From Marinobacterium iners DSM 11526 (GTDB lineage Bacteria; Pseudomonadota; Gammaproteobacteria; Pseudomonadales; Balneatricaceae), in assembly GCF_900107855.1 (NCBI RefSeq), contig NZ_FNRJ01000002.1, positions 8,453 through 72,452 of the forward strand: 64,000 nucleotides of DNA, written 5' to 3'. The translations under genes were made by a program, and so were the position numbers. Below the pieces are notes generated by a model. That model saw only the letters and a list, made by a program, of their open reading frames with translations, ran no database searches and was not told the origin of the DNA. Below, in pieces: positions 22,311 through 46,550 of the stretch (positions are counted from its first letter, which is position 1; the number at the start of each line of letters is the position of its first letter).

Positions 22311-22327
22311 AGCCATAAGCATGCCAA
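22311..22327 (-). promoter_or_regulatory. Sigma-54-like promoter of druHE
   Basis: Minus strand reads TTGGCATGCTTATGGCT. The -24 GG and -12 GC dinucleotides are 12 bases apart, as sigma-54 needs, and an AT-rich tract that could take IHF lies just upstream (22328-22350). The predicted start is about 70 bases before the druH ATG. It is one of four such elements in the island. Confidence 0.65.
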
Positions 22328-22460
22328 AACAAAAAATTAATTATTTTCAATTACTTAATGCGAATAGGTCTTAAAAATCAACCGATGGTATGTAAGATTT
22401 CTTACCCAAAAGAAACCATCCTTACGGCTTAGCTATTGCCTAAAGCCCAACAAATAACGA

Positions 22461-22919
22461 CTACCCAGCAATACCCCAAAGCTCTTTCAGCCGCGTAACC
22501 GTATGCTCCCATTTCGGTGTGCGGGGCCGGGCTACAGAGTTCTGATTCCCAAACAAACCAACTTCGTTAACGGCCTCATGCACCGAGACTTTGTGCAGCC
22601 AATGAACCGGAACGAAGTACTCGGCGTCATCTTCGCCGCACTGGGCAGCCATGAAATATTGCCCCTGGATACTTTTTCCATCCGTGAGGAACTCATCAGC
22701 CACCACCGGATGATCCGTGACTTTCGCCACACCAACATATCCCGTACCGGGGATATTGACCCAGACGCGATCTCCGGGTTTAAGCATGAACAGGGTTTTA
22801 CTGTACCAACGGCCACCCCCTGCCGATATGAACCCATAATCAGAAGAAGCGTGCCAGCTACAGCATCTGACCGACCTCCAACTGTATGACTTGGCGCCAT
22901 CGCCCGGCTTTTTTGTCAT
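22461..22919 (-). CDS. Small PUA-like (EVE/YTH superfamily) domain protein
   Basis: From the ATG at 22919 this encodes 152 residues. The core pattern YGFISAGGGRWYSKTL..LKPGDRVWVNIPGTGYVGVAKVT is the one I know from PUA-like domains found alone or fused to nucleases, which bind modified nucleotides. The N-terminus overlaps the end of the DUF2357 gene by 62 bases in another frame, and no ribosome-binding site is clear, so the exact start is uncertain and could be coupled. It is the last gene of the TerY-P/McrB operon. In CoCoNuT systems, YTH-like readers of modified RNA are expected; DNA modification is the alternative ligand. Confidence 0.65.
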   Translation of the reverse strand: MTKKPGDGAKSYSWRSVRCCSWHASSDYGFISAGGGRWYSKTLFMLKPGDRVWVNIPGTGYVGVAKVTDHPVVADEFLTDGKSIQGQYFMAAQCGEDDAEYFVPVHWLHKVSVHEAVNEVGLFGNQNSVARPRTPKWEHTVTRLKELWGIAG

Positions 22920-24669
22920 CAGCAGAGTCAAAACCGATTTCATATATCCAGCTGTTACCTGTTGATCGTATCTGCCAGTCAGAAGCACAACGGTCACATA
23001 AAGACTTAAACCCTCGCTCTTCACGTAAATAAAATTTAGATTCCTCAGCCTGTCTACCGCAGCATGGGCAATAAGTAACGAATCTGGCTGCCATGTAACT
23101 TCTTTCTATAGAAGCCTTAACGCTTGGCGATAAATGGAAGCCCTCAAGCCATAGCTTAAAATCGCCATCATTCGGGGAGCCCATAGCTTTAAATTTCCCA
23201 GGCGGTTGAGATTCAGGCCATTTTTCTTTGACCACTGAGGGTAGCTGAGATATATCCATCCCATAATCAGTCACGATTAATCTTATCCACCACCGTTGAA
23301 CAGTCTTGATTACAGATTCTTCAGTAAATAAGTTATCAGGAGAGCAAATGAGTACTGTTTCTGACTCTGTTTCACTATCAGGGCTACACAATATACGGTC
23401 AGGGATCGACTCCTCAAGGATAAAAGCTTGAGCCATTGGAACGAATTCAAGCTGTCCGATAAGATTAGTGTTATCGCATAATAGGTGCCAATGACCAGCT
23501 TTGTAGGCTAATCTTCCTCTGACTCCTGAGGGATGATCGAGCGACCAGACCGCCTCAGATAACGGCGTGATTCTCCAACCCATTTTTTGATGGGCACGAA
23601 GAGTTAACAGTCCAACGTAGTGCCGGTAACACTCCACCTGATTTTGCCTTTGTTTAAAAATCAGGACAGGATCTTTCGAACTCGATGCAACTTCCTTTAC
23701 CCACAACCCCCACAGTCTCCGCACCTTCATATAGCGCAGATCGTTCATCAGAATATTCGTGCCTTTCAAGGCCAATGGGACTTCTGCATCTCGCGGTACG
23801 GCGCGATAAACCGCGTTCTGTTTTAGTTGCTGAATTTTCCTAAGCTGCTCATCAAAATGTGCCAGCTTTGTCTCAGAAAGAGATTTCAGGCTTTCAGCTT
23901 CGCCTTGAGCAAAAGACTCTCCCCAAGTTTCGCACAATGCATAGCGTAAGCTTCGGTGAAGGGAGTCACTTCCCTCTAATTCCAGCCCTCTTTGGAGAGC
24001 ATCATTAAGCACTCTCAGCCTCGCCAAAGTGCCTATGATATACCGCTCGAGATGATCTAGAAGTCGCGCAAATACACGGTTCTCATATATATGAACCTCG
24101 TCCTCGCTGATTTTAGCCTGCAGCTTCTTGGGCACGATGCCCGTGAATGTTCTCTGCTGCCAGCATTCCGAATGCGCCGCTAAATGACGCTGGTAATTGT
24201 TTGCCGTACGCTTAACCCTAGAGACAGGTAAAAGCTCCTCGTCATATCTCATCGATATGCGAGGTGACTTCGCGATTCTATGAAGATGACCTAACTGAAG
24301 TGCCTCCATAAGCTCGACCTCTAGCTGCGAATGATCGAACCTGTGGGCGATTTCCGGCGGAATCACAGGAGAGGGTAAGCTATCGGTATCTGACAATTCA
24401 GCAAGTGCTTTGATCTCTTCAAGTGCCTGGAAGGCAATCTCTCTTTGCGCCAATTCCTTTGTGTCGAGCTTACTTGCTTCGAGCTCGAAGGAAACACCGT
24501 CAATATCTATACATCCACGGCCATCATCTACCAATACGGTGCCGGCAGGCCAGCTACCATGAATGCCCAGGGAACATTCTTTAAGTAGAGAGTACCGACC
24601 TGAAGGAATTGGCTGTGAAGGCGTGATCAGTACCATATCTCCTGTGGCCACATCCCTAACTTTGAGCAT
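22858..24669 (-). CDS. DUF2357/McrC-like protein with zinc ribbon
   Basis: 603 residues, starting at the ATG that overlaps the mcrB-like stop (TGATG); AGGAG lies 9 bases upstream. The centre (RVKRTANNYQRHLAAHSECW...EDEVHIYENRVFARLLDHLERY) is the DUF2357 pattern seen in McrC-type partners of McrB ATPases. I cannot find the D-ExK nuclease motif of McrC in the C-terminal half. Instead there is a four-Cys ribbon (CPCC...CDRC) near residue 545. It may be a non-catalytic adaptor that links the McrB ring to nucleic acid, or its nuclease may be too diverged to see. Confidence 0.7.
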   Translation of the reverse strand: MLKVRDVATGDMVLITPSQPIPSGRYSLLKECSLGIHGSWPAGTVLVDDGRGCIDIDGVSFELEASKLDTKELAQREIAFQALEEIKALAELSDTDSLPSPVIPPEIAHRFDHSQLEVELMEALQLGHLHRIAKSPRISMRYDEELLPVSRVKRTANNYQRHLAAHSECWQQRTFTGIVPKKLQAKISEDEVHIYENRVFARLLDHLERYIIGTLARLRVLNDALQRGLELEGSDSLHRSLRYALCETWGESFAQGEAESLKSLSETKLAHFDEQLRKIQQLKQNAVYRAVPRDAEVPLALKGTNILMNDLRYMKVRRLWGLWVKEVASSSKDPVLIFKQRQNQVECYRHYVGLLTLRAHQKMGWRITPLSEAVWSLDHPSGVRGRLAYKAGHWHLLCDNTNLIGQLEFVPMAQAFILEESIPDRILCSPDSETESETVLICSPDNLFTEESVIKTVQRWWIRLIVTDYGMDISQLPSVVKEKWPESQPPGKFKAMGSPNDGDFKLWLEGFHLSPSVKASIERSYMAARFVTYCPCCGRQAEESKFYLREERGFKSLCDRCASDWQIRSTGNSWIYEIGFDSADDKKAGRWRQVIQLEVGQML

Positions 24670-26993
24670 CACGCCATCTCCTTGCGCTCAATCTCTTGCT
24701 CAAGCTTTTCTTCGCAAAGGAAAGCAAAGCCTTCTTTAGAAACACTCTCCCAAACACTTTGAAGGCAGCCTTGTAGTTTGGTTAAATGCTCCGCCTTCGT
24801 ATCGTAACGACCAGTTACCTTGCCATCCCTGAACAGACGAACTGACAGTAAGTGATCCAACGCCTGACTTGATGTGCCACCAGCTGCCATTACAACTGGT
24901 ATGAATTGCCTAGCCTGTCGCTCGAGCCGGTTCCCCCAGCCGATGCCAAAACGCTTTTCGAGTACGCTAGTTATTTCATGCTCTTGCAGCGTTTTAAAAA
25001 TCCGATCCACTTCGGGCCGATATCGCTTCATGGCCTCTTGGATCGTTGCACGCATCGATGAAACGCTATACATAACTGGGCATTTTAACGTGTTAGAAAT
25101 ATTTTCGTGATCATTACGGCCCAACTCGAGCACAAAGCTTCGGTCCTGCGTTTTATCGGCAAATTCAAACGTGGTCTCATCATGGTTTGCTGTGCCGATA
25201 AACCAAAGGTTGTCAGCAACAGGAACCTTTCGGCCATCCCTCAGGAATCGTGGATATTTGGCGGGCGCATCTTCCATTAGTACTACCTGCCGGTCTTCTC
25301 CAGTTAACTCGAGGGCGGAAAGGAACTCAGCAAAGTACTGCTCAGGGCGGGACAGGTTCATTTCGTCCAGAAGGACAACATTGAAGCGATCGCTATACGC
25401 TGGTGTTTGAGCACGATAAAGAGCCTGAAGACATTCTTTTTCATAAAAGCGCTTCTCGAAGGCATTGTAATGTCCTACTAGGTCATCTCGATCGCGCCAC
25501 CCTGCTTGCACGGGTACGACTGTACACTGCCCACCAACCGCTCGCGCGAAGGCCTTAGCCAAACTGGTTTTACCGGTTCCAGATATCCCCTGCAGGATAT
25601 GTAATTGACTCATTGCCAAGCCGCCAATGAAAAGGCGAAGAGTGTCTTTACCGAAATAGAGGGGGTTTTCTGAATCAACCTGAGAGATTCTCGTTTGAAG
25701 ATCTTCAACGAACTCTTCCAGAGAGGGAACAGGCTGGGTAACCGATTGTTCGCTCAACTCCCTATCCATGCGCGTTAGAGCGGGAAAAACAGCCTGGCCC
25801 TGCTGCAAGTCTTTAAGGTCATCGATTTCTCGTTTTAACTGTTCAGTAGCTAAGCGAATGGCGTCATTATGCTGCTCAAGCACTCTGTTTTTATTCACCA
25901 GTTGCTCTCGCTCCATAACCCCCATGGCTCTTTGATGACGCTCTATATTTGCCTCTTGTAGTTCCTGAGTTCTCTCTCGCAGTTGATCCTCCAGCACTCT
26001 GTTAAGGTCTTTTAAATAATCGACCTCATCTTCAAGCTCCTCAACAGGACGCCCTGCTAGTTTCTGTCTGTACTCTCGCACATCCGATTCGAGCTGCTCC
26101 ATGCTGATCAAAAGCTCTTCCGCAGAGTGCATTTCTTTTTGCTTGATAACGCGTTCCAACTCCGCGTAGCCGGACAAGCGCTGTTGTAATTGCATCAAAC
26201 GGTCTGCTTCTTTCTTCCGGTACGCATTGATTCGCTCAAGCTCAGACTCAAGCTCAGCAATCCGGATGCCAAACTCTTGTTCAAGCTGTTCTTTTTTGAC
26301 CGATTCCCAGGTTTCACGAGTCGACTCTTTTGCCTCTAATTGAGACTGCTGTTCCTTAAAGCCTACTAACTGACGCTCAAGCTCCAGTTTGGCCTGTTCG
26401 AGCTTTTTCCACTCGTCCTGGATCTCTTGAGCAAGCCTTTTCTTTTCCGTATCTAACGATCGCTGAGCTTGGAGATATTCGTTCTGACTTTGCTCTAAGG
26501 ACAGCGCATGCTCGGCCCGGATCTTGGTCAGCTCAGCGGTTAATTCCGCCAAAGATTCTCTATGCTGCTTTACAAAACCAGCTTGCGCCTCCGCTTCCCG
26601 GACAGAAAGCTCCTCTTCCTTTGTGAGTAGGGCCTTTTCCTTGGCTAGAAGCTCGGTGCGCGCTGTTTCAATGCCTCGAACTTCTTGCTCGCGCTCTGAC
26701 GCTTTTGTCTCTAGTTCTGATCGCTCATTCTCTAAAGAGCTTCTTAACTCATCGAGTTCAGCCCGGTCTGCTTCTAGGACCTGCACATCACCTTCATATT
26801 TTGCTTTGAGTGCAATCAACTCGTCGCACAAAGCCTCAAGTTTTCCGAATTCATCGGAAGATACTTCAGCCATCAGAGAGCTTTCTGGCTTTGTTCCAGT
26901 GATACTCTCAACCTTTTCAGCAATGGCATTTTTAGGCATCTTCGCTGGTTGCCGCTGTGGAGGAATGTTATTCCGACTTTTCTTTCTGGCCAT
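24669..26993 (-). CDS. Coiled-coil McrB-family AAA+ ATPase
   Basis: The 774 residues begin with a basic tail, continue with about 350 residues of heptad-rich, Glu/Gln/Leu-rich coiled coil (about 45-420), and end in an McrB-type AAA+ domain: Walker A QGISGTGKTSLAK, Walker B VVLLDEMNLSRPEQYF and sensor-1 WFIGTANHDETT. The NTxD element that gives McrB its GTP preference is replaced by ANHDET, so nucleotide choice is open. A long coiled coil joined to an McrB ATPase is the defining mark of CoCoNuT (coiled-coil nuclease tandem) type IV restriction systems. AAGGA lies 7 bases before the ATG, and the start overlaps the HEPN gene by 26 bases. Confidence 0.85.
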   Translation of the reverse strand: MARKKSRNNIPPQRQPAKMPKNAIAEKVESITGTKPESSLMAEVSSDEFGKLEALCDELIALKAKYEGDVQVLEADRAELDELRSSLENERSELETKASEREQEVRGIETARTELLAKEKALLTKEEELSVREAEAQAGFVKQHRESLAELTAELTKIRAEHALSLEQSQNEYLQAQRSLDTEKKRLAQEIQDEWKKLEQAKLELERQLVGFKEQQSQLEAKESTRETWESVKKEQLEQEFGIRIAELESELERINAYRKKEADRLMQLQQRLSGYAELERVIKQKEMHSAEELLISMEQLESDVREYRQKLAGRPVEELEDEVDYLKDLNRVLEDQLRERTQELQEANIERHQRAMGVMEREQLVNKNRVLEQHNDAIRLATEQLKREIDDLKDLQQGQAVFPALTRMDRELSEQSVTQPVPSLEEFVEDLQTRISQVDSENPLYFGKDTLRLFIGGLAMSQLHILQGISGTGKTSLAKAFARAVGGQCTVVPVQAGWRDRDDLVGHYNAFEKRFYEKECLQALYRAQTPAYSDRFNVVLLDEMNLSRPEQYFAEFLSALELTGEDRQVVLMEDAPAKYPRFLRDGRKVPVADNLWFIGTANHDETTFEFADKTQDRSFVLELGRNDHENISNTLKCPVMYSVSSMRATIQEAMKRYRPEVDRIFKTLQEHEITSVLEKRFGIGWGNRLERQARQFIPVVMAAGGTSSQALDHLLSVRLFRDGKVTGRYDTKAEHLTKLQGCLQSVWESVSKEGFAFLCEEKLEQEIERKEMA

Positions 26994-28494
26994 TGGGCAG
27001 TCCTTTGAAGAAAATCTTTAAAAAAGAAGCAGTGGTGGAAGCCGCTTCTAGTGACATGGATTTAGAGACGTTAAATTGCGTATCGCCGTGAGCGGAGTCA
27101 TCTCTCCAGTGCGATAAACGATAAGCATCGAGGAACAGTTGCTCCGCTTCCACAAAGCCCCTTATCGGGTGGTTTGGATAATCAGGCATTGACAGCAAAC
27201 ATGCTGCTAAACAGCGTCTAAAAGAGCCCTTCTTGTAGACGGCAGCACTATAAACGGTCGAAGGTTTAACCTTTGTTACTTCCTGCCATTGCTCCTTTGA
27301 AAGCGAGGGCATCGCATCCGTGATTAATCTTTGCAAATCAACCGAACGGCAATTTCTGGGGATGATTTGTGGGTTGTTTAATGGGAAGCGTCCAAGACAA
27401 TACCTCACACAATGCTCTATTAAGCTTGAGCTTTGCGTTATCAAATCGCGGTAATCGTGGAAACGATCTGTAAATTCAGATGTTTCAATTTCCAGCTTAC
27501 GGTTCGTCCAGCCATGTAGAAGGCCAATCAAACCGTCTACTTGATCGGCTTGGTTATATTCCGTTAATACTTCTAGCCTTGCCTGCTCCTCACGTGCTGC
27601 TAGAGCATCTCGCAAGGAAGAGAACTCATCGTGCTCGTCTACACCGATCATCCGCATGATGTTTCGCGAGAGTTTAGGGACGCTTCTGCAGGCACCTTCG
27701 ACTTTTTCTCGCATCCACTGCACATCCGCGTGCAACCCAAAGGGATCAGCGGCCGCCCAAACATGTTCTAGCCCGGAGCCTGTATACACCCAGACCCATA
27801 AAAACGCGGGAAATGACTCCTTATCTGACAGCCTTAGGGCATCCAACTGACGAAAAGAGTCGAAGTCATCCAAATCACCCATCATCCAAGCGTTTCGTTG
27901 AGCTTGGTGAGTTGCTTCCATCACATGGCGCAGATCAGCCTTGCTCGGTGTGACCGGCTCATGTTTTTCACGGATCAGTGTCGGCTTCCACTTCCAATTT
28001 GAAGCTTTGGAAAAAGCGAACTCTAACGAGGTATCCGAAGAAACTGATGGCTCAACGACCTTAAGATCATTTGAATATCTCGGTAGAAGACCACCGTCAA
28101 AAGCATCTTGAAATACATACCCGGTGCGAAGGCTATTGGAGCCTGGCAAGTCTTCTTGCAGAGCCTTATGACCGTCTTCTGTCAGCCAACCCGTTTTCGG
28201 ATCCACCCAACCCTTTGGCTCTAGTTGCTGCTCAATAATGTATGTCACCATTTCTGGTTCAAGCCCATGCCATTGGGCTAATTCAGCAATGCGCGCAGTA
28301 TCTAATCGCTTTCCTGTTCTCATGGAGAGCAGGGAAAGCAACGACCTTTCAAATACATTCGTACTTTTCCCTGAAACATCAGGCCCATAGACCTGCCATA
28401 CATGAACAGGCCACAACACAGCCCTAACCGCCATGCGATCGTCGACAGGAGGCTGCATCAGGTAACAGATGAACTCCTCAGATAATCTTGCCAT
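26968..28494 (-). CDS. Protein with winged-helix-like N-terminus and C-terminal HEPN-type RNase motif
   Basis: 508 residues from the ATG at 28494, which has GAGGGAG close upstream; a longer start at 28515 is possible. Near the N-terminus, GWVDPKTGWLTEDGHKAL looks like a winged helix. About 39 residues from the end, LSHWRDDSAHGDTQF fits the R-x4-H pattern of HEPN ribonucleases, embedded in two predicted helices as in that fold. The middle is unrecognised. The gene overlaps both neighbours (helicase and McrB), which implies tight co-expression. HEPN RNases are reported as parts of CoCoNuT systems and would act by cutting host or phage RNA. The HEPN call rests on the motif alone. Confidence 0.6.
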   Translation of the reverse strand: MARLSEEFICYLMQPPVDDRMAVRAVLWPVHVWQVYGPDVSGKSTNVFERSLLSLLSMRTGKRLDTARIAELAQWHGLEPEMVTYIIEQQLEPKGWVDPKTGWLTEDGHKALQEDLPGSNSLRTGYVFQDAFDGGLLPRYSNDLKVVEPSVSSDTSLEFAFSKASNWKWKPTLIREKHEPVTPSKADLRHVMEATHQAQRNAWMMGDLDDFDSFRQLDALRLSDKESFPAFLWVWVYTGSGLEHVWAAADPFGLHADVQWMREKVEGACRSVPKLSRNIMRMIGVDEHDEFSSLRDALAAREEQARLEVLTEYNQADQVDGLIGLLHGWTNRKLEIETSEFTDRFHDYRDLITQSSSLIEHCVRYCLGRFPLNNPQIIPRNCRSVDLQRLITDAMPSLSKEQWQEVTKVKPSTVYSAAVYKKGSFRRCLAACLLSMPDYPNHPIRGFVEAEQLFLDAYRLSHWRDDSAHGDTQFNVSKSMSLEAASTTASFLKIFFKGLPNGQKEKSE

Positions 28495-31400
28495 GTGCTC
28501 CCTCACATAATTCATAGAAGGCGGGGAACCCAGGCAATAAAGGCATATTGTCTTCTGGGTCTAAGCCATCAACTTTTCGAAGCCCTTTATCGCCAACGAC
28601 GATAAGCAACTTTTTCTGTCGGCTCATCGCGACATTGATTCGATTCGGCAGCCTTAAAAAACCCAATTTACGATTCAGGCCTTCAGGGGTCATTTCCGTA
28701 TCCGTGCTCCAGGTCCGCACAACCGAAAGGATGACAACGTCAAACTCTTTACCTTGGAATGCATCCACGGAACCTACACGAAGGCGTTCTTCACCCAAGG
28801 AGTTCAAGCGATATTCTGAACATATCTGCCAGCCATCCGCAGTGAGTTCGGCACAACCATAAGCCGCTAGTTCTTCGTAAATAGCGTCTCTTTGAGCGCT
28901 ATAAAACGTAATCACACCAACGCTCATGTCAGGATGCTCGGAAAGAATTTTCCTGGCTTCTTCCGCACATCGCTTAGCCTCAGCGCGCCTAAGCTTGCTA
29001 CCGTTTTTTGTTTTCTCTGCCCCTTGCTCGACCGGCACATCGACCCAGGCTGCGAGGCAGCCCCAATAGTCAGCGATATCATGTTCAAATAACTCTTCGC
29101 CCAAGCCTGGAGCAATCGGATCAAAGCCACGCCGCTCATAGAACTCCCGACTAACGAAACGTCCTAGCTCAGGATGCATTCGAAACTGGGTATCAAGCAT
29201 CACGACGCGCTGCGGCCCGCCGTCCTTATGCATTCTCAAAAACTGGCGATGCAGATGTTCGAATAGACTGATGCGAAGTAACTCTGATTTGACCGCATCA
29301 AGCTCTTGCTGCTCTTGGAGTTCGGCTTCGACACGAGGTTCGAGCATATGAGGCAATTGGAGATGGTCACCTACCAGAACGATTCGGCGTTTCGCCATTG
29401 CCATTGGAATCATCAGATCAAGAGGGCTTGCTCGAGCGGCCTCATCGACAATAACGGTATCGAACGTAATACCCAGCCGCTCGCTAGTCTCCTTTATATT
29501 GAGCATTTGATCGCCGGCCGCTTGCTGACATGTAGCCCCGAGCACCGTGACGTAATCTCCGATACTGTTCTCAATGCTTGAGGCCTTATTTTCAAGCGCC
29601 TGAACATACTCATGCCGTACCATCAACGGACCCAACGTCCGAGATTTAGCAATTAGCTCGTATAGCTCACTTTCCAGCTTATCGAGGACATCGCAGTCAG
29701 CTGTGTCCATGTATGAGCGCACCCCATAGGGGCGATAGTCAGGCCGAACGGCATCAATCAGCTGTTCCTTAGCCGTCTGAATTTTCTCAATAGCCGATTC
29801 AACTGGTAGCGACGATCTATCTAACTGATCGAACACTTCCCTTAAGAACACAATGACTTCATGCTCTTTGAGGCAGGGCACGTCCTCTACGTAGGCCAGC
29901 AAATCTTTTAAACGAGCAATTCCATCATCATGAAATGCGAGCAGGCTCGTTCTTAATCCTCGAGTTCTTCTCATAAGCTGCATTCGAGTCGCTTTCGACA
30001 GGTGAAGTGAATTCCCCTGATGGAGTTTTTCGAACGTTTTTTGCCAGTCAAAACTCAACTCCTGCGATAGGTGGAGATCATGTTCGAGAGCCAGTTGAGA
30101 CAATATTTCTTCGATATCCATGGCCAAGACGCGCCGTGAGCCTGGTTCTCTGGACATTCTCAGGCTGAGAGCAGCGTCTTTCATTTGTTCGTACAGCCGG
30201 AAAACCGGCCACGTCCGCATCTCCAATTCCAACTGCGGCTTAAGTTCCAATATTTTGCTGATACGCCATTTGGTAATAGGGCTTTCGGCAGCGTCTCCGC
30301 CAAACCGACGCCCGCCAACCTTTACTGCCGGCAGGCCGAAAACGCCTGAACGTTCAACAACATTATCTACCGCGTCGTGCTGGAAGCTGGTGAGTAGAAC
30401 TTGATGCTTCAATGATGAACCGCCTGAAAACTCATCAACTATTCGTTGCTGAAGAGCGGCGATAACCTGTGTTTTGCCTGTCCCTGGCGGGCCGATGATC
30501 AACGCAACATCAGGTGTGTTTAAAGCTATATCCAGCGCATCCTTTTGCCGGGGCGTGGGTTCCCCTTTGAAGCGCTTCTTAGCCTTTGGAGATAAGGGCC
30601 GTAATCTGCGGCCTCTCTCTACCGGAGTATCTGCCCCCTCAAGTAGCATTCTTAACTGCGGCATTGGATTGTTATGAGTCTGGATTGAGGTGTAGGCTTG
30701 CTCCCTCCGCTCATGTGCCGTCTTGTCGCCCTGAATTGACAAGAAAATCTCACCTTTCTTGGGAGGGCGTGACTGTCTTATTTCTACCTCTACATAGGGC
30801 GGCTTCACAACCAGATCCCTTCCAAGCAAGGGCCTGCTTCCAGACGCCTCTTTTTTATCAGGCTCTGTATCACCAAGCAGCCAGCCAGGTGGCTTTGTTG
30901 CGATTTCAACTACAAGATCTCCGACGCCAAGTTCATCATTATCTTGCAGTTCTTTAATCCGCTTGCCGAACTCAGTCGCTTGTTCATCACCCAAATTCAA
31001 GCGAAACCGGGGTAGTTCCTTGCCCATATGGGACATGTCACTGTAGGAAAAATAACCCAGTTTCTTCGCCGCACGCGTCGCTATATTCCATTGCAGTTTG
31101 CTGTAGGTTTCCCATAGGTTCAGATAGCTACCGCTGTCATTGATCAGCTGGTCGAGCACATCGACAGCGGTTGCTCCAATCTTGGCTGCAACTGAGTCAT
31201 CTACAAATTCAGTAGTACCCGCAATCGCAATAACATCACGACTATCACGACGCAGCCTGGTGAGCTTCTTTGCTCGCCAAACCCCGCCATCATTGATGAT
31301 CGATAAAGCATGTCCTTTACCGACTAACTGGAAATCATTACGATCCTGGCTTTTGAAATACCGCGCTATCAGCAAAGGCTCGTTGAGCTCCAGCACAAAC

Positions 31401-31789
31401 TCATCCCGCAGCCATTCATTCGCCGCTACGACCGTGTTTTCTGAGATCAGCGCATCAGCAAAAATTTGCCCTGAGAGATAGGTGTCTACTGCAATTTTCA
31501 GGTCCAACGACAACCGAGTCTGAAATCCTGCATGCTCAAGGTGGAGATGATCAGCTCCTTTCTGAGCCAAGCGCCATAAACTGAGTCGAGTTAAGACTAA
31601 GTCTGCTGTTTTGGAGTCTGTAGCTCTTACCGATGCAACGAGCTCGTCTTGAGCTATTACCAACTCGTTTCTATCGCTTACTAAGCGGACTTCTTGCCCC
31701 ACCTTCCAATCTAGTGAGCCCGCACTGTAATCAACGAAATGGACACAGTGAAGGTTGGGGTTAAAGAAGCGAAAGTCTTTTAACTTCAT
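28478..31789 (-). CDS. UPF1/DNA2-like SF1 helicase
   Basis: 1103 residues from the ATG at 31789, which directly follows GGCGGAGGT. The N-terminal 400 residues are unrecognised and could contain OB-type folds. Then come the SF1B motifs: Walker A IIGPPGTGKTQVIAAL, motif II VIVDEAARASPLDL, motif III LVGDHLQLPHML, motif V/VI VDAFQGKEFDVVILS and NVAMSRQKK. These match UPF1/DNA2/Nam7-type helicases that act on RNA or DNA 5'-3'. About 200 helical residues are inserted between motifs Ia and II. In CoCoNuT operons a large UPF1-like helicase is a regular component. It lies between the kinase and HEPN genes. Confidence 0.85.
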   Translation of the reverse strand: MKLKDFRFFNPNLHCVHFVDYSAGSLDWKVGQEVRLVSDRNELVIAQDELVASVRATDSKTADLVLTRLSLWRLAQKGADHLHLEHAGFQTRLSLDLKIAVDTYLSGQIFADALISENTVVAANEWLRDEFVLELNEPLLIARYFKSQDRNDFQLVGKGHALSIINDGGVWRAKKLTRLRRDSRDVIAIAGTTEFVDDSVAAKIGATAVDVLDQLINDSGSYLNLWETYSKLQWNIATRAAKKLGYFSYSDMSHMGKELPRFRLNLGDEQATEFGKRIKELQDNDELGVGDLVVEIATKPPGWLLGDTEPDKKEASGSRPLLGRDLVVKPPYVEVEIRQSRPPKKGEIFLSIQGDKTAHERREQAYTSIQTHNNPMPQLRMLLEGADTPVERGRRLRPLSPKAKKRFKGEPTPRQKDALDIALNTPDVALIIGPPGTGKTQVIAALQQRIVDEFSGGSSLKHQVLLTSFQHDAVDNVVERSGVFGLPAVKVGGRRFGGDAAESPITKWRISKILELKPQLELEMRTWPVFRLYEQMKDAALSLRMSREPGSRRVLAMDIEEILSQLALEHDLHLSQELSFDWQKTFEKLHQGNSLHLSKATRMQLMRRTRGLRTSLLAFHDDGIARLKDLLAYVEDVPCLKEHEVIVFLREVFDQLDRSSLPVESAIEKIQTAKEQLIDAVRPDYRPYGVRSYMDTADCDVLDKLESELYELIAKSRTLGPLMVRHEYVQALENKASSIENSIGDYVTVLGATCQQAAGDQMLNIKETSERLGITFDTVIVDEAARASPLDLMIPMAMAKRRIVLVGDHLQLPHMLEPRVEAELQEQQELDAVKSELLRISLFEHLHRQFLRMHKDGGPQRVVMLDTQFRMHPELGRFVSREFYERRGFDPIAPGLGEELFEHDIADYWGCLAAWVDVPVEQGAEKTKNGSKLRRAEAKRCAEEARKILSEHPDMSVGVITFYSAQRDAIYEELAAYGCAELTADGWQICSEYRLNSLGEERLRVGSVDAFQGKEFDVVILSVVRTWSTDTEMTPEGLNRKLGFLRLPNRINVAMSRQKKLLIVVGDKGLRKVDGLDPEDNMPLLPGFPAFYELCEGAHGKII

Positions 31790-31800
31790 ACCTCCGCCCC

Positions 31801-37176: not shown

Positions 37177-37270
37177 ACACTATCAGTCTTTAAATATCAT
37201 GCAGTTACATGCAAAAATAAAATAGTACGCAACCAGAAACTAATATAGATTTATTTATTTGTAATTTTTT

Positions 37271-38240
37271 TTATGCGTCTTCCTGGCTGACGACCCAGCC
37301 AACGGCACTGACAATACCCCAGTTTCCGCTTTGATTAGGTCGGCGCCACTTAGCAACCTGCATTTCGCGTAAGTAATCGAGGGCTTCCTCGTACTCAGAA
37401 AACCGCTTTTCATCACCCTTGACTCCAACCGTGTACTGATTATTGCGGGCACACAGCACAGGGCAGAAGATGCTCCCATCTGAGGCCATAGGGACCTGGT
37501 AGCTAGCGGTAGATCTATCCGTGCAATTCGTATTCTTCGATGCGGTCTTGGCCTTCATGATCATCCCTTCCGATTCATTGTTAGAAAGGTCGAGGCCTTC
37601 TACGTTATCTGGAGTATCAAGACCCAGTTGAAGTGCGATCTCTTCTCGAGCGACATCGTCCAACTCTACCCAGATTACCGCGCCGCTTTTATGCCGGTAG
37701 GAAACCGGGCAGAGTAAAGGCATCACATCCTCCAGCACCCAGGCATGATTCCACTTGTAGTCGGCATGACTGTATCGTGACGACGGTACACAATGCTTTT
37801 CTTCGTGAACGGCCAACTGATCGGCTGTGAACGGGCCTTTTACATCCACCAAACTTGCCACGCCCACCACCGTACCGGCGAAGAGGCCGAAATACTTCCA
37901 GATATCCGAGACCGCGTTGACCTTGATTCCTACTGCCCGGGCGATGGTGAAGGCCATCCAGGCTTCCAGCGCCATGGACACCACCACCACCACGCCCATC
38001 TTGACGGGCAGACCGGCCAGCACCATATTGGTCACCGCAACGAGAGTGATCACCTGCTTGATTCGGGCTTCGTCGGACGCTCCCGGAATGTCGCCCCCCT
38101 CCCCCCCGGAACGGCTCGAACACAAAGTCGCGCAAACGGACATTGGAGAACAGCGCTTTCACGCGCTCCAGATTCTCTTCTAGCTACTCTTTGGTGGCGC
38201 CTGTTGGGTAGCTGCTTAACATTTCCCTAAGTTGTTCCAT
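37271..38240 (-). pseudogene. Decayed gene for a predicted membrane protein, with nonsense and frameshift changes
   Basis: A good start (ATG at 38240, AGAGG upstream) opens a frame MEQLREMLSSYPTGATKE that hits TAG at codon 19, then continues in the same frame (LEENLERVKALFSNVRLRDF) up to a run of seven G at 38101-38107 (C on the plus strand). One extra G there would join it to the 290-codon frame that holds two membrane helices (VITLVAVTNMVLAG, VVVVVSMALEAWMAF) and a C-terminal domain ending WGIVSAVGW. Two independent lesions argue for a pseudogene; the G-run could also be a sequencing error or phase-variable. I do not recognise the family. Confidence 0.7.
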
Positions 38241-38438: not shown

Positions 38439-39908
38439 TCAGGCCCAGCACGGGATGTAGCGCATCGCCTTGGAGCCCGCCTCCGGGTCGTAGGGCCGAA
38501 TTAATTCTGCTTTCACCGCGTCTTTGATGATACGGCTAACCATGGCAGCGTTCTTGGGCTCAATGCCGAAGCGCTCGCGCAGAGTGGTGTTGTTCATGTG
38601 CTCCCGGTTGACGTATTTGAGGCAGCAGTGCATGTAGCAGGCCAGCATCCGCTCCTCTTTATCCATAGCGGCGAACTCTTTATGGCCGAACAATACGGAG
38701 CGGGTATGGTGGTCGGTTACCTCAAACACCGGTGCGGGTAACTGATAGAACTCGGTTTGAAACACCACTTTATCGATACCGGTGCCACGCTCTTCGCAGA
38801 TATTGATGCGCCGCATAAAGGATGCCAGCGCCTCGTTCCGGCTCTGGGGCGGTGAATCCAGAAAGCGCTGTGGCTCGACCAGCGGAGTACCGGGATTGGA
38901 AATTTCCATGCGCTGATCGAACAGCTCTATCATTGGCCCGGTGCCGGTCAGTGAGAAATCCTGATGGATGATGGCATTGGCGACCAACTCGCGGATCGCC
39001 AGCTCTGGGTACATCGGCACCTCTTTACGAAATGCCTTGCCGATCTCTTCGTTGGAAGGCAACAGAGTTTTGATGTAGTCGATCAATCCCTCAAAGCCAA
39101 CCGCATAGCCCTTGCTGCCCTCAAGCTCCCGAACGGTTTCGACTCGGCTATTACCACGATAAAGTACAAGGCGCACTGCCTTGCGCCCAAGGTGATGAAA
39201 ATCCTGTAGCTTCTTGGCAAATAGGATCGCGCCCAAGTTGGTGATATACCACCCGCCGCCATCGGCTCGTTTGAGTAACTTGTCTGCTTCCAGCGCAGCC
39301 AGAATGCCATCACGCCCCTCCGGTAGCGGTTGCTGAGTCAGCTCGAAATAGGCAGGGTAATCGAGCAGCTTAAGCACTTGCTCTACGCTGCTGCTCTCGG
39401 TCGCCAACTGGCGTTCGAACGGGGTCTGATCGAACACGCGCCACAAGGCCCGCTCCTTTTCGGCGTACTCGCGCAGTTTTTTCTTGTACGACCCCACGCG
39501 GATATATTCCACACCATCAAACTGTACCGGCGTATGGGTAGCCGCCTGAACCTCCAAAATCACTACCGACAGTGCGTCACCGGTGGCGAATTCATAAAAG
39601 CGGAAGTGAATTTTGGGTGCCGTTTTCTGCAGCAACCAGCTCTCCAGCTCCTGTTGCTTGTGCCGTGCGCTAGAGGGTTTGAAACGGGTGCCGACCACTT
39701 CATGGGAGGCGTTATCAATACCCCAGACCAGATAGGCAGACTGCTTGCCCACCAACGCCGCCGAGTTGGCCAGCGCCGAGATATATTCGCCAATCATCGG
39801 CGGATCGTCGTTGTCGTGCTTAAACTCCACCCATTCGGTTTCGCTGGGCAGGCGGCATAGCTCCCGCAGTAGGCTTTGCAGCTGTTCTAAGGTTTGATCG
39901 ACGGGCAT
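38439..39908 (-). CDS. Schlafen AlbA_2 domain protein with GHKL-like ATPase domain
   Basis: 489 residues. The N-terminal AlbA_2 domain (EWVEFKHDNDDPPMIGEYISALANSAAL, then AYLVWGIDN) is a nucleic-acid-binding Schlafen fold. A HATPase_c_4-like segment (RELVANAIIHQDFSLTGTGPMIELFDQRMEISNPG) follows near residue 310, with a winged helix at the C-terminus. Proteins of this type are common beside type I restriction genes and are often called RecG-like regulators; their function is not settled. It lies downstream of hsdS on the same strand. Confidence 0.82.
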   Translation of the reverse strand: MPVDQTLEQLQSLLRELCRLPSETEWVEFKHDNDDPPMIGEYISALANSAALVGKQSAYLVWGIDNASHEVVGTRFKPSSARHKQQELESWLLQKTAPKIHFRFYEFATGDALSVVILEVQAATHTPVQFDGVEYIRVGSYKKKLREYAEKERALWRVFDQTPFERQLATESSSVEQVLKLLDYPAYFELTQQPLPEGRDGILAALEADKLLKRADGGGWYITNLGAILFAKKLQDFHHLGRKAVRLVLYRGNSRVETVRELEGSKGYAVGFEGLIDYIKTLLPSNEEIGKAFRKEVPMYPELAIRELVANAIIHQDFSLTGTGPMIELFDQRMEISNPGTPLVEPQRFLDSPPQSRNEALASFMRRINICEERGTGIDKVVFQTEFYQLPAPVFEVTDHHTRSVLFGHKEFAAMDKEERMLACYMHCCLKYVNREHMNNTTLRERFGIEPKNAAMVSRIIKDAVKAELIRPYDPEAGSKAMRYIPCWA

Positions 39909-40260: not shown

Positions 40261-41451
40261 TCACAGCTCACCTCGAAAGGCTTGTTGGCTTACTGACTCA
40301 AATAGCCCTTCGCCTGAAGACCCTTTCATTTTTCCAACCATATTGAAAACCGATTGCCGCACGCATTCATAACGGTTCTGAAGTTCCACGGGGGGCAATG
40401 GGAGTTTAAGGTCTTTCAACTGCTGAGCTGTGAGCTGAGGAACCGCAGCACCTTGACCATTTTTTTGAAGCTGGGCTTTAATCGCGCGCGATGTAATTAA
40501 ATCGTGCAGATATACGTTTGTGGCATTTCGATTGGGCCTGATGATCATCATCTGAGCATTTATGAACGCTGTATCATGCTCAGATTCAAAGATGCAGCAA
40601 GCCCCAAGTGTACCTCTAAGGGTGATAATGAGATCACCTTGTCTGGCCTTACCACGGGAAAGCGAATCAAATTTCTCTTTAGTGATGTACTGGCATGTCT
40701 TCAAGCTAAGTTCATCTTGGAGGATGTTTTTGGTACTCAAAAACAGAACCCCCGCATCAACAATGTCCTCGCCACTCGGATAGTTAGAAGAGCGATCACC
40801 GTTTTCAAAGCTCGAAAACTCTGACATTGGCACCATATCCCACCCCTTCGGATTAGTCACTGGGTCACCAAACATCTCCAGAAATACGCTGCGGAGGAAC
40901 TGGTCGGCGAGGTCGATGGCTTGCTGGCGTTTGCGACGCAGAGCGTCGGCCTTATCGAGGATGGCGGCGATGCGGTGTTGTTCAGCCAAAGGTGGGAGGG
41001 GAATTTCAAAAGACTTAAGATCCCTCGCAGAGAGATTTGGCTGTGCAGCCCCATTTTGATAAGCAGAAATCTGATTTTTACATAGTGGGCTTTTTAGGAA
41101 GTGAGCTAAGTAAGATTTCGATAAGTGCTCGCCATTACGTAAGATTACCAACGAAGAAGCAATTGCCCCGTCCTCAATGTCATCAACTACCGCAAACTTG
41201 CCAAGCGACCCTCTTAAACAAAAGAGAATATCACCCTTTCGAATTTTCCCGTTGCTAAGCAAATCAAACCGATCGCGTGTGATGAAGTTAAGCCCATCTT
41301 TACTGACTGCGTTATCACTAAGATTACCGGCATTGATGAAAGGAATTCCCTTTTCGACAAAAGCATCCCCAGAAGGGTAATTCTTACCTCTATCGCCATT
41401 TTCAAATGAGCAAAGCTCACCAAGACGCCAAATCGGCCAAGATGTGCTCAC
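40261..41451 (-). CDS. hsdS: Type I restriction-modification specificity subunit HsdS
   Basis: 396 residues with two target-recognition domains (about 1-150 and 205-345), each ending in a conserved helix with LPLPP ([27 protein letters not shown] and [13 protein letters not shown]). Both recognition domains begin with nearly the same sequence, SFENGDR..NYPSG, and align with each other along their length. Half-subunits in HsdS each read one half of a bipartite site, so the two half-sites may be similar. The start overlaps hsdM by 4 bases. Confidence 0.93.
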
Positions 41452-42989
41452 AGCATCCCCTCCAGCTCTTCCAGGTCCTGCTGAATCTCCACCTCCAGCG
41501 CCTTCAACCGAGCCAATATCACCTTCGGCGGCTCATACTCCTCCGCTTCGTATACCTGCTCTTTATAGCGGTTCAGCGAGAGGTCGTACTTGTTGCCGGC
41601 AATCTCGTCACGGCTGACCCAGAATGATTTGGCGGTACGGTCGTTCTGATCGGACTCTGCCACGGACTTGTCCCGGGCACGGAACTGCGCCACCAGCTCT
41701 GGCAGGTCGTTGGCTTCGATCTTCTGGCGCTTGTCATCCAGGGAAAAGCCATCGGCTTCCACATCGTAGAACCAGACGTGGTCGGTCTCGCCGCCCTTGG
41801 TGAAGATCAGGATGGCCGTCGACACACCGGCATAGGGCTTGAACACGCCGCTGGGCAGTTTGACGACGGCTTCCAGCTGGTTGTCATCCACTAAGTGCTT
41901 GCGCAGCTGCTGATGTGCCTTGGAGGAGCCGAACAGTACGCCATCCGGCACGATGGTGGCACTGCGACCGCCCAGCTTGAGCATGCGCATGATCAGCGCC
42001 ACAAACAGCAGCTCGGTCTTTTTGGTTTTGACGGTACGCAGCAGGCCCGGATCGACATCCTCTTCGTCGAGGCTGCCCTTGAACGGCGGGTTGGCCAGAA
42101 TCAGGTCAAAGCCTTCGCTGGCTTCCGTCGGGAAGCGCTCACCAAAGCGCTGACTCAGGGTGTCCTGGTAGTGGATATCCGGCTCGGCCACACCGTGCAT
42201 TACCAGGTTCATAGCCGCGATACGCAGCATGGTGGCATCGAAGTCGAAGCCGTGGAACATGTCACTGTCGATGTGGTGGCGATGTTCGTGCAACAGGTCG
42301 CCCAGGTAGATTTTCTGCTCGACCGTGTTGCCCTTCTCGTCCGTTACGGACTCGGCGATCACACCTTCCGGCGAGCTGTATTTTTCCAGCAGGTATTCAT
42401 AGCAGGTGGCGAGGAATCCCGCCGTACCACAGGCCGGGTCGGCAATGCGCCAGGTCGGTTCCGGGTCCAGCATCTCGACGATGGCGCGGATGATGTGGCG
42501 CGGGGTACGGAACTGGCCATTGATGCCTGCAGTGGTCAGCTTGGAGAGCAGGTACTCGTACAGATCACCCTTGGTGTCGCTGGTTTCCAGCGGCAGCTCG
42601 TTGATCATGTTGACCGCTTTCACCAGCAGGCTCGGCTTCTGGATCATCAGCTGGGCGTCTTTCATGAACTCGGCAAACAGGGTGCCCTCGCCTGCCAGAT
42701 CCTTGAAGTGCGGAAACACACGATCCCTCACCAGCGAGAACATCTGCTCGGCCGGCAGGTGGCGGAAGTTCTCCCAGCGGATATCCTGGTCCACCGCCGA
42801 AAAACGGTTGTTAAATCCTTTGCCGGTGCGCTGAGCGCGCTTTTCGTCGCGGCGCTCGTTCAGATCGAGCATGCGGGCGTACATCAGGAAGGTAATCTGT
42901 TCCACCACGGTCAGCGGGTTGGTGATACCTCCGGTCCAGAACTCTTCCCAAAGCTTGTCGATCTTGTTTCTCAGTTCACCGGTAATCAT
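41448..42989 (-). CDS. hsdM: Type I restriction-modification methyltransferase HsdM
   Basis: 513 residues. N6-adenine methyltransferase with a helical N-terminal HsdM domain, the AdoMet motif [11 protein letters not shown] near residue 180 and the catalytic motif NPPF ([15 protein letters not shown]). With HsdS it methylates host DNA, and with HsdR it cuts unmodified DNA. It starts 71 bases after hsdR, and its stop overlaps the hsdS start. Confidence 0.96.
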
Positions 42990-43060: not shown

Positions 43061-46000
43061 TTAAATCGACACCCGTTTCGCGGTGCTCTGTTTCTGTGGT
43101 CCCAACTCAACGCCGAACTGCTTGACCAGCTCTACCAGCGCATCCGCGGTACTTTCATCAGTGAATACACCGTCCAGTCCATCCGTATCCAGTGCGGTAA
43201 ACGGATGATCATACAGCTGGGCCAGGTTGATGGTGCCGAACCGGCACAGGTGGTTTTTCAGCAGGCCGATAAAGCGCTGCTGACGGCTGTCCAGGTGGAT
43301 ATGGTTCTGCTGCACAAAGCGCGTAAAGGCCGCTTCAACCGCCTGGCTGTCCATGCCGATCAGTGTGCGCAGCAACTGGTCCAGACTGGCACCAGATTCC
43401 GGGAAGAAGTCTTTTAGCGTATCCAGATCAAGACTCGGGTTCTGGATATGCACCAGTGCGTTGAGCTGCTCCAGCTCGGTCTCGGTCACGGGTTCACCCT
43501 TGCGGATCTTGGCCAGTACCGGATCGGACTCGAACAAAGGCGTCAGGGTTTTCTCTACCTCTTGGCGGAAAATCTGGTAATCGACTGTGACGATTTTGGT
43601 GGGTCGGTCAGCGATTTCGTACAACCCCTCGTCATCCTTGATATCGATAACCGGCAAGGCCTCCGCCGGTGGCGCTGTATCCTTGTCTCGCAGGTGAATG
43701 ATCCCCCGCAGCGCCAGGCGCTTCTCTTCCAGCGCTGCAAAGCTGACTGCCTGCCAGAAGCTGTCCTGCTGGATATCACGAATCTGGTCCGCCTGGGCAC
43801 GCACCGGGTTCAGGTGCATCGACAGCTTGCCGACCTTGGCCAGGATGGGCTGCTTGGCAACATCCATTTCAGACGGGTTGTTCAGCAGGATAAACTGCAG
43901 CTCTGTCAGCTGAAGATCCCAGCGCAGCGCTTCAGACTGATTCTTGATGTCACGCCACTGCATCAGCGGTGCCATTTCGGTACGCAACAGCTGGCGGGTA
44001 TCCGGTGCAAAGGCGTCCAGACGCTTGGCATCACTGAGTTGAGCCTTGAGCTGCCAGTTGTCACGCACGGCGATACAGCGGTCATCCAGTGCATCGATAT
44101 CCGCCTTGATCAGTGCGACCGCCTGCTTGAACAGTTCCATCTCCGCCTTTTTCAGCGCCGTTTCGGCCAGATGAAGCCGTGCTTCAAACAGCTTCTCGCA
44201 CAGTGACTTGCCGGGGCGACCTTCATCCTCTGGCGGGTCCATGTCGAAATATTCGAAGTTGCCCCAGTGATCAAAGATCAGGAAGTGTGTCTTGGGCTGT
44301 CCCGACCCATACAGATCCGGACTCAGGCGCGTGCCACGACCGACCATCTGCCAGAACTTAACCTTGGACTTCACCGGCTTGGCAAAGACCAGATTCACCA
44401 CTTCCGGCACGTCGATACCGGTATCGAGCATATCCACTGAGATTGCGATGGTGATCTGGTCGTTACCCTCGGTCTTCTTGAAGGCGTCGATCAGATCTTC
44501 GGCACGGTCATACTTGGAGTGGATCACGCGACAGAAATTGCCGCCATGCTGCGGATACATCTCGCCAAACAGCTCGGATAACAATTCGGCATGCTGGATG
44601 CTGCGGGCGAAGATGATGCTTTTGCCGGGCAACTGGCCATCGGCATCACGCAGCCCCTTTTCCATCAGGTTACGCAGGATGGCTCGGTTGGTGTCCTTGT
44701 TGAACACTGCCTTGTCGATATCCGGCGCATCGAAGTCCAGTTCGTTCGGATCGAAGCCCTGCTCTTCCAGCTCGGCCAGCTGCTCATCGGTCAACGATTT
44801 GCCTTTGATACCCTCGCGCAGGAACTGAGTGGTATGGGTGACCACACGGAATGGCACAAGGTTACCATCAGCCACCGCCTGCTCCAGCGGGTAGTTGGCT
44901 GTAGGCAGCTTGTAGTCACAGCCAAACAACCGGCAAGTGGAGCGGCTGACCATCTCAACCGGTGTAGCGGTCAGACCAACCTGACGTGCATCGAAGTATT
45001 TGAACAGATCGCCATAGACGTTGTAGACCGAGCGATGGGATTCGTCCGCAATGATCAGGTCAAAATAGCCCACATCGAACTGCTCGTAGAGTCGCATCAT
45101 GCCGGGATAGGTCGCGACGTAAATGCGGGCGTTATCCAGGTATTTCTTGTCGCTTCGACCAACCACATACATCGGTTCTTTGGTGAACTCACTGAAGGCA
45201 TTGCGAGCCTGCTTGCGCAGTTCCTTGCGATCACAGAGGAAGAGCACACGCTTGGCCCAGCCTGCATCCAGCAGGCGCTTGGTCAGCGCAATGGAGACAC
45301 GGGTTTTACCGGTACCGGTCGCCTGCACGATCAGCGCCTTGCGATGTCCCAAGGCGAAACGCTCGCTGACACGAGTGATGGATTCCATCTGGTACAGGCG
45401 GCCCGCAACGTCGGTATCGATGGGCGTTGCGTTCAGATCCTTGCGCTGGGTGCGTTGCTGAATGAGGTACTGCAGGCTGTCCTTGCTGTAATAGCCATAG
45501 AGCTTGCGCGGCACGCTATCCAGCACATCATCCCAGATCCAGATATCGTAGCCGTTGGTATAGAAGATCACCGGGCGTTGGCTGAATTTTTTCTCAAGTG
45601 AATTGGCGTACAGCTTGGCTTGCTGACGACCTTTTTCCGGGTTGGCACGCGCACGTTTAGCCTCTACAACAGCTAGCGGCTTACCATTGTCATCCCAAAG
45701 CACGTAGTCACAGTAGCCGATACCGGTTGTGGTCGGTTGGCCATCCACTTCAACCTCAACACCCACCTGTTCGGTGTTACCGCCCTCCAGATCCACATCC
45801 CAGCCTGCCAGGCGCAATTCGCTGTCGATCAAACGACGTCGTGTCTCGGCCTCGTTCAGTTCGAGCGTATTGGTCGCCTGAGTGCTGGATTTGATGAATT
45901 GCTCGACCCTGCCCTGATCCTGCTGCTGTTTGAGTTTGGCCGCTTCACGCAGTGCCGCCTGTTCGGCCTCCTTCGCTGCCTCCAGCTCTTTCAGCGCATC

Positions 46001-46504
46001 TTCCAGTTGCACGGATTGCGAAGCCAGCTTCTCCTGCAGCGTCTTGTTCTTCTGCTTGAGTTCCGACTTGGCTGTTGGGGGCTGTATGGGTTTAGGCTCT
46101 TGGAATTCAGGGCATTGTTCACGGCTGCCATCCCCCTGAGCGATCAACAACCAGCAGCTCAGATGGAAGGCTTCCTTTACTAGCCAGGCAGCCGTATTGG
46201 CTGATACATCACCTTCATGAGCCGCCTTGTTGCCATGCATGCGGATGGCATGCAGCTTGTCGAGAATGACCTGCGGCACGACGGATTTGAAGCTGTCATT
46301 GTTCAGACGATCCATAAAGGTCGCATTGGGCTCTACGGGGAGCTTGAGCTCGCTGTAGACGACACCCACCAGCTTTTCGACAAAACAGCGGAGTTTGACC
46401 AACGAACTCTGCGGATCTAGATAGGCGTAGGTTTCAGCAAACCCGCCAAGGTCCGCAAGGTTGGGCCATTGTTCTCTGAGATGTTCAAAATTCATGGACT
46501 TCAT
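43061..46504 (-). CDS. hsdR: Type I restriction endonuclease subunit HsdR
   Basis: 1147 residues: an N-terminal DUF4145 domain ([15 protein letters not shown] near 90), a coiled coil (about 145-210), the endonuclease core with [21 protein letters not shown], then the SF2 translocase (Walker [16 protein letters not shown]-like box [12 protein letters not shown]-type TATPVEM, motif [13 protein letters not shown]). All catalytic elements look intact. A second ATG (46495) is possible. It follows the CARF activator gene after 64 bases, and those 64 bases contain a sigma-54-like promoter. Confidence 0.95.
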
Positions 46505-46533
46505 GTCTTTCAGCCTGTGATGACTTCCTGTAA

Positions 46534-46550
46534 TCCAAGTATCGTGCCAA
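46534..46550 (-). promoter_or_regulatory. Sigma-54-like promoter of hsdRMS
   Basis: Minus strand reads TTGGCACGATACTTGGA. The -24 half TTGGCACG is perfect. The -12 half has TTGG in place of TTGC, so this is the weakest of the four at -12. Transcription would begin about 20 bases before the hsdR ATG, leaving a very short leader. Confidence 0.6.

Follow-up and report, generated by a model that had tools for sequence, protein, structure and literature searches.

RtcR-like activators and the defence island of Marinobacterium iners

One of the closest known counterparts of the regulator considered here is RtcR from E. coli, a CARF-AAA+-helix-turn-helix (HTH) protein. According to passages of PMC9650030, the rtcBA promoter combines -24/-12 elements with an integration host factor (IHF) site and an upstream activation sequence, and in the model described there the CARF domain keeps the AAA+ domain repressed until a signal arrives; the ligand is given in passages of PMC7790460 as tRNA halves with cyclic phosphate ends. 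We analysed a stretch of 64,000 nucleotides from Marinobacterium iners DSM 11526 (contig NZ_FNRJ01000002.1), called the window below, in which a related activator gene stands beside several defence operons. Judging from their sequences, three of these operons (DUF4258-PIWI, TerY-P/CoCoNuT and Druantia III) very likely form one sigma-54 regulon, recognizable by a -24/-12 site and by an inverted repeat, GTAA-N6-TTAC, upstream of it. Where RtcR drives rtcBA, the window activator appears to drive several defence operons, and the rtcBA promoter of E. coli contains no GTAA-N6-TTAC within one mismatch.

Regulators of this kind have already been connected with defence genes. Passages of PMC11090510 report that RtcR homologs accompany type II CoCoNuTs, type I restriction-modification (R-M) and Druantia III, so that the same kind of activator is found beside the same systems as in the window; they propose binding to an upstream activating sequence, for which the passages found give no motif, predict a superoperon and consider RtcR-independent internal promoters likely. 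Passages of PMC4012209 predict that an RtcR-like family encoded near R-M genes consists of sigma-54-dependent activators of downstream genes, and those found define neither promoter nor operator. RptR (PMC12255303) offers a parallel through its single regulator per island, its type I R-M and its conserved palindromic operator, but it represses the island promoter, and sigma-54 and CARF are absent from the abstract of that paper. The gene association of CARF/RtcR-type regulators with CoCoNuT systems, which the initial annotation of this DNA had mentioned as known, is indeed published, whereas for the shared promoter set and the GTAA-N6-TTAC repeat no report was found in searches of open-licence papers, subscription papers lying outside the scope of the search.

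The activator

46569-48080, minus strand: activator, CARF - sigma-54 AAA+ (GAFTGA) - HTH, 503 aa, GTG start

The protein matches PF00158 with an E-value of 1.3e-69 and contains GAFTGA, as sigma-54 enhancer-binding proteins do. It had been described as the window's sole sigma-54 activator, with a CARF-like N-terminus, and both statements hold: no other open reading frame (ORF) of at least 80 aa in the window has GAFTGA or a phmmer match to it, and a profile search of the PDB retrieved the Csm6 chain 6tug (E 2.4e-5). Its own match to Csm6_CARF (PF22208) has an E-value of 0.0047, below the curated Pfam cut-off; among the N-termini of 31 orthologs, at E-values up to 1, Csm6_CARF was matched by 30 (best 1.7e-6), RtcR by 11 and Card1 by 8, the CARF domain of this family thus matching Csm6-type profiles more often than the RtcR profile. 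In an alignment of 404 aa, 32% of the residues agree with RtcR of E. coli, and the NCBIfam RtcR equivalog, whose cut-off is 650 bits, gives 328.9; by sequence, the activator is related to RtcR but outside RtcR proper. The HTH was assigned by reading the C-terminal sequence, the Pfam scan giving no HTH profile match.

Sigma-54 sites in the window

37160-37175, minus strand: sigma-54 site before the DUF4258-PIWI operon, matrix score 15.5
34716-34731, minus strand: sigma-54 site before the TerY-P/CoCoNuT operon (VWA gene), score 16.2, the highest of the window
22311-22326, minus strand: sigma-54 site before druHE, score 11.9, identical in genome G006
46534-46549, minus strand: sigma-54-like site before hsdR, score 14.9, -24 canonical, -12 GG

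The initial annotation had placed four 17-mers on the minus strand, at 37160-37176, 34716-34732, 22311-22327 and 46534-46550, and all four were recovered there, each in the gap preceding its operon and on the coding strand. As it had stated, the DUF4258, VWA and druH sites have GG at -24 and GC at -12, 12 nt apart, which is the arrangement of a sigma-54 promoter, and in the hsdR site GG takes the place of GC at -12. Position 37160 falls within an antisense ORF according to a gene caller that uses length only and not according to one that uses coding scores. Scores come from a hand-written sigma-54 matrix, calibrated on the E. coli rtcBA (18.8) and glnA (15.0) promoters and applied to the 16-nt -24/-12 boxes on both strands of the window.

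Eleven matches in the window reached 11.85, a cut-off set post hoc at the weakest site, and the four intergenic ones are exactly the four sites listed above, while the intergenic share of the window is 9.2% (binomial P 0.014). Taken alone, the matrix supports the sites weakly, and the real evidence lies in their conservation and in the GTAA-N6-TTAC element. The looser pattern TGGCA-N7-TGC was rejected as too common (108 matches in the window vs 90.8 expected), and a simple scan for sigma-70 promoters and terminators between 33900 and 48400 was not informative, both being below expectation. Two further genes of the island, an AlbA_2/HATPase gene (38439-39908) and the gene of a 290-aa protein (37271-38143), are preceded by gaps without a sigma-54 site (scores -0.3 and 5.1).

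An inverted repeat upstream of the sites

37261-37274, minus strand: ATAA-N6-TTAC repeat (one mismatch) of the DUF4258 promoter, centre 94.5 nt upstream of -24
34804-34817, minus strand: perfect GTAA-N6-TTAC repeat of the VWA promoter, centre 81.5 nt upstream of -24
22392-22405, minus strand: perfect GTAA-N6-TTAC repeat of the druH promoter, centre 74.5 nt upstream of -24
22412-22425, minus strand: second repeat (one mismatch) of the druH promoter, centre 94.5 nt upstream of -24
37195-37207, minus strand: IHF-like element TAACTGCATGATA (one mismatch) of the DUF4258 promoter, 28 nt upstream of -24
22345-22357, minus strand: IHF-like element TAAGTAATTGAAA (no mismatch to the relaxed consensus) of the druH promoter, 27 nt upstream of -24

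This enhancer-type repeat, which does not figure in the initial annotation, was first noticed by eye upstream of the sites; its centre typically falls 72-95 nt ahead of -24, and many promoters have tandem copies. In the near clade it is present within one mismatch at 13 of the 14 promoters other than those of hsdR, with centres 74-95 nt upstream of -24, the exception being a G059 promoter at +49.8 kb (score 13.0) where no repeat lies at the right distance. Of 20 promoters listed by hand for near as well as distant clades, a list from which a promoter of locus L054 at -4.9 kb (15.3, no repeat at the right distance) had been omitted, 17 carry the repeat within one mismatch at 70-97 nt and 11 carry it perfectly, as compared with means of 0.46 and 0.013 and maxima of 4 and 1, respectively, in mononucleotide shuffles. 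An IHF-like element with at most one mismatch to a consensus relaxed to fit is found 20-50 nt upstream in 12 of the 20, mostly at 26-28 nt (shuffles: mean 1.9, maximum 8); the VWA promoter of the window has none within one mismatch. At several promoters, including that of druH in the window, a second repeat lies 19-21 bp away, and the distances of the repeats cluster with a period of about 10 bp, only 6 of 5000 random sets being equally strong in this test of 23 distances, for which related species were all kept in.

The repeat also goes with the site when gaps are compared: leaving out the first gap after the activator, 8 of the 15 gaps whose site scores at least 10.5 have a perfect repeat within 300 nt vs 2 of 143 gaps below that score (P 3e-8), in a set that overlaps partly with the one where the repeat was first seen. 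The two latter gaps belong to G006 (site 9.7) and to the DUF4258 gene of L051 (site 7.5). Among gaps without a site upstream of the activator, 1 of 111 has a perfect repeat. Pattern searches for the repeat led to four further promoters, for which the independent information is that they belong to genomes with an activator and precede defence-type genes: L213, before a VWA gene (16.2, repeats at 74.5 and 94.5), L214 (11.4), L215 (11.4) and L216 (13.4), whose DUF4258 gene belongs to a different contig of G018 and whose perfect repeat is centred at 93.5.

Conservation across orthologous islands

The comparison of the same gaps in related islands, which the initial annotation had suggested, showed that the sites keep their position and strand. 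It was based on 33 non-redundant orthologous regions (37 were built and 4 duplicates from the same contigs dropped). A site scoring at least 13 starts no more than 30 nt after the activator stop in 28 of them, and five orthologs found later and held out all have a downstream site (14.1-16.8) which is the best match of its locus; three of these sites begin 0-1 nt past the stop and two begin 83-84 nt past it. Counting all downstream gaps on the activator strand, 33 of 187 contain a coding-strand site of at least 13 and none a reverse-strand one, and such a site is found in 1 of 114 gaps before genes upstream of the activator. With the first gaps excluded, 9 of 158 still have one vs none on the reverse strand, a result that 0 of 300 permuted matrices equalled (mean 0.20, maximum 2); at a laxer cut-off of 11 the counts are 14 vs 2. 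A site scoring 11.4-17.7 stands before the DUF4258 genes of the window, G055, G059, G013, G012 and L036, in addition to the L216 gene described above; the site before the DUF4258 gene of L051 is the 7.5 one already mentioned.

A scan for the composite promoter on both strands of 844 kb of island regions gave 21 matches, of which 19 are intergenic, and within the window it picked out the three promoters of DUF4258, VWA and druH and nothing else. Two genes divergent from the activator also have a composite promoter, L049:6242 (12.0) and L125 near 17341 in G059 (11.6), which extends the predicted regulon beyond one strand.

The genes behind the promoters change from island to island. The stretch bounded by the promoters of DUF4258 and VWA is occupied in the window by a PIWI-like gene (34814-36340) and in Shewanella indica by NERD-UvrD (L213:3945-5822), and both promoters are retained around the swapped slot. 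In other islands, promoters of this type precede genes for metallo-beta-lactamase-fold proteins (PADLOC PDC-M48B, LmuA-like), DUF2130 proteins and MoxR-vWA ATPases. From these sequences it appears that modules are exchanged while the promoter kind persists. The genes after the Salinivibrio promoter (L214:11268-18805) recur with the same sizes and order at intervals of about 3.65 kb, like a tandem array.

A putative operator of the activator gene and the recognition helix

A perfect repeat is also found within 300 nt upstream of the activator start in 22 of the 33 regions (shuffles: mean 0.3, maximum 3), and each of these 22 has a copy 7-45 nt ahead of that start, which suggests autoregulation. 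Its presence follows the sequence of the predicted recognition helix of the activator: with HQT, 20 of 24 activator genes have the perfect repeat, and with YQT, QQT or SQT 0 of 7, the histidine being the residue that the repeat appears to track (P 1.3e-4, kinship ignored). The helix could be parsed in 31 of 38 regions, and 2 of the 7 unparsed ones have the repeat. These motifs, their spacing and conservation, and the way they accompany the activator and a particular type of HTH, are read directly from the DNA.

The site before hsdR

The first site of the island differs from the others. In orthologs it keeps a set distance from the stop of the activator gene, and in 10 aligned near-clade sequences its -24 box, TGGCACG, is invariant while the flanks drift; in distant clades, where the site comes right after the activator stop, the -12 element is mostly canonical. 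These features suggest that type I R-M probably belongs to the regulon through a variant promoter adjoining the activator gene. It is possible, if doubtful, that the hsdR word is instead weak, poised or otherwise used, type I R-M then lying outside the near-clade regulon: in the near clade the -12 element is GG (as in the window), GA or GT and does not reach the canonical form, and within 260 nt upstream none of 11 hsdR promoters has the repeat within one mismatch. Over all clades, the first gap contains a perfect repeat in 1 of 29 cases (L045). The invariant core and the canonical -12 of distant clades speak against this alternative, which is in any case compatible with a regulon of the other three operons. 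The proposal of the initial annotation that four operons share a sigma-54 promoter set under the CARF activator is well supported for DUF4258-PIWI, TerY-P/CoCoNuT and Druantia III, which have both sites and repeat, and only in part for hsdR, whose site is deeply conserved but has neither the repeat nor, in the near clade, a canonical -12.

Alternative explanations and points against the regulon

The published view would make the island one superoperon, transcribed from the first promoter beside the activator, with internal promoters independent of it. In its favour are the unidirectional genes, the passages of PMC11090510 and the first site, which is conserved more widely than any other (28/33). 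We consider this unlikely, since the heads of internal operons carry sigma-54 sites with the repeat, and since the CoCoNuT operon of G059, inverted and about 40 kb away, keeps its own site (12.8) and a repeat with one mismatch, an argument against one promoter for a whole superoperon; in the window, the gaps between modules measure 146-352 bp.

Less probable still is that the sites are sigma-54 promoters driven by another enhancer-binding protein of the host. Candidates exist: in the host genome (G000), which has one match for rpoN, 13 sequences scored against the activator, at least 12 of them other than the activator itself. But the repeat is found upstream of the activator gene itself in 22 of 33 regions and within 1.5 kb of other sigma-54 activators, as a perfect repeat, at 0 of 17 loci; it follows the recognition helix, and the islands occur in several genera. 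That the sites are chance matches to words as common as -24/-12-like ones is hardly credible, because, even if the loose pattern lies near expectation and most strong window matches are genic, position and strand are kept in orthologs, permuted matrices never gave as many sites, and the composite matches of the window are the three promoters only.

Several observations nevertheless weigh against the regulon as we read it. Of the eleven window matches scoring at least 11.85, seven lie within genes and three of these score 14.7-15.6; equally good matches inside genes were what the initial annotation had named as a refutation, and for the matrix alone the outcome is one. The matrix gives the druH site a low score (11.9), the repeat of the DUF4258 promoter carries a mismatch, the hsdR site lacks both repeat and canonical -12, and two sites of at least 13, at +49.8 kb in G059 and at -4.9 kb in L054, have no repeat. 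A strong first site is absent in 5 of the 33 orthologs (G059, G013, L054, L055, with a 9.6 site at 31 nt after the activator stop, and L052, with 9.3), and in the window genome and G006 no perfect repeat was found within 300 nt of the activator start. The composite scan gave 14 matches in 1.02 Mb of comparison loci, many of them one site in related Bacillus-group genomes, so that the count alone is a weak contrast and the separation lies in position. Among 116 family genomes, 40 contain a perfect repeat with a loose sigma-54 word, and the activator (E 1e-90) is present in just 12 of these 40; this loose composite was rejected as a specific marker. Most of these strings look richer in GC than the island promoters, and in the own genome the single match is the VWA promoter. 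Finally, related species are non-independent samples.

A small comparison with genomes devoid of the activator favours the regulon, no site of at least 11 being found within 400 nt upstream of six homologous operons (best 10.5; activator absent at E 1e-90). The six are druH homologs from three genomes, distant ones at 30-34% identity, and hsdR homologs from three (62%, 36% and 36%); only the 62% homolog has repeats, two with one mismatch each and no site to serve.

Genes of the operons

43061-46504, minus strand: hsdR, so named in the initial annotation, homologs adjoining hsdM and hsdS in orthologous islands
41448-42989, minus strand: hsdM, Pfam N6_Mtase 2e-60
40261-41451, minus strand: hsdS, Pfam Methylase_S 2.4e-30
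36783-37124, minus strand: DUF4258 protein, PF14076 5.5e-8
36502-36771, minus strand: small ORF without family, kept beside DUF4258 in G055
34814-36340, minus strand: PIWI-like protein, PADLOC PprPIWI 4e-11, Pfam Piwi 0.0027, below cut-off
33921-34595, minus strand: TerY-like VWA protein, Pfam VWA_2 2.3e-13
33228-33917, minus strand: PP2C phosphatase, Pfam PP2C_2 4.5e-36
31801-33240, minus strand: protein kinase, Pfam Pkinase 3.2e-13
28478-31807, minus strand: SF1 helicase, candidate CnuH, Pfam AAA_12 1.5e-37
26968-28515, minus strand: 515-aa protein, candidate CnuE by position, RxxxxH at residue 471, no Pfam family
24669-26993, minus strand: AAA_5 (McrB-like) protein, candidate CnuB, Pfam AAA_5 1.2e-6
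22858-24672, minus strand: candidate McrC-like protein, weak DUF2357, Pfam 0.016, below cut-off
18909-22232, minus strand: druH (Druantia type III), PADLOC DruH3 2.2e-287
12670-18912, minus strand: druE (Druantia type III), PADLOC DruE3, E 0

With both druH and druE matching type III models, the last operon is a Druantia type III. For a putative type II CoCoNuT, the VWA, PP2C, kinase, helicase and AAA_5 parts were found, the McrC part being represented only weakly by DUF2357 at 0.016, and the PIWI-like protein is given that name only, its Pfam Piwi match (17.4 bits against a cut-off of 28.9) falling below what would assign it to Argonaute/PIWI. Among 369 genomes of the class, 6 have the activator, and the only 3 with relatives of DUF4258 (E 1e-12), the own genome included, belong to these 6; the DUF4258 gene may be a functional partner.

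The island

10482-48742: genomic island, about 38.3 kb at the 3' end of tRNA-Leu(UAG), absent from a same-species genome
10452-10481 and 48743-48772: 30-bp repeats bounding the island

The tRNA-Leu(UAG) gene in which the island is seated occupies 48747-48831. The same-species genome (G128) has no activator at E 1e-90 and an uninterrupted tRNA-His-Leu-His-Arg cluster, that is, an empty site. The island looks mobile; no integrase was seen among the island proteins scanned, a subset of its ORFs. The left end (10657-12232) contains, by sequence reading, two genes, one HipA-like and the other small and HTH-like.

A model for inducible defence

We hold it highly probable, from the sequences compared, that the island is an inducible defence regulon under the CARF-AAA+-HTH activator, working by a mechanism modelled on RtcR, where CARF represses AAA+ until the signal. 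The activator would bind the GTAA-N6-TTAC repeats, often a pair spaced by about 20 bp, that precede the separate defence operons; its CARF domain would sense an infection-linked ligand and release the AAA+ ring, which would then meet RNA polymerase-sigma-54 poised at -24/-12 across a DNA bend, with the help of an IHF-like site at many promoters. DUF4258-PIWI, TerY-P/CoCoNuT and Druantia III would fire, and probably type I R-M too through its variant promoter, and in most relatives, not in the window genome, the activator probably controls its own gene. We infer binding, sigma-54 dependence, bending, the ligand and induction by phage from the sequence pattern, and a single ligand, proposed in the initial annotation, would be the common signal. 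A cyclic oligoadenylate made by Cas10 was rejected as the general signal: strong Cas10 was found in only 2 of 14 genomes (G013 and G008), and the matches of the other 12, at most 34.5 bits (27.1 in the own genome), were taken as GGDEF cross-matches, seen likewise in E. coli.

The switching-on of defence islands is largely an open question according to the abstract of PMC12255303. We lean towards the view that the activator, together with the GTAA-N6-TTAC/IHF-like/-24/-12 code, constitutes a portable inducible immune regulon with interchangeable unrelated modules and a self-limiting feedback. If this is true, one CARF signal would deploy a reconfigurable arsenal, even from inverted or distant modules, exchangeable among CoCoNuT, PIWI or NERD-UvrD inserts, Druantia III and metallo-beta-lactamase-fold, MoxR-vWA and DUF2130 operons. 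If the operator-promoter code can be read in this way, it would tell which modules respond to the CARF sensor, predict new defence genes by their promoters (DUF4258 partners and slot inserts, for example) and allow the ligand to be sought directly with a reporter, and it could explain why such systems might fall silent once transferred to a host that lacks the activator.

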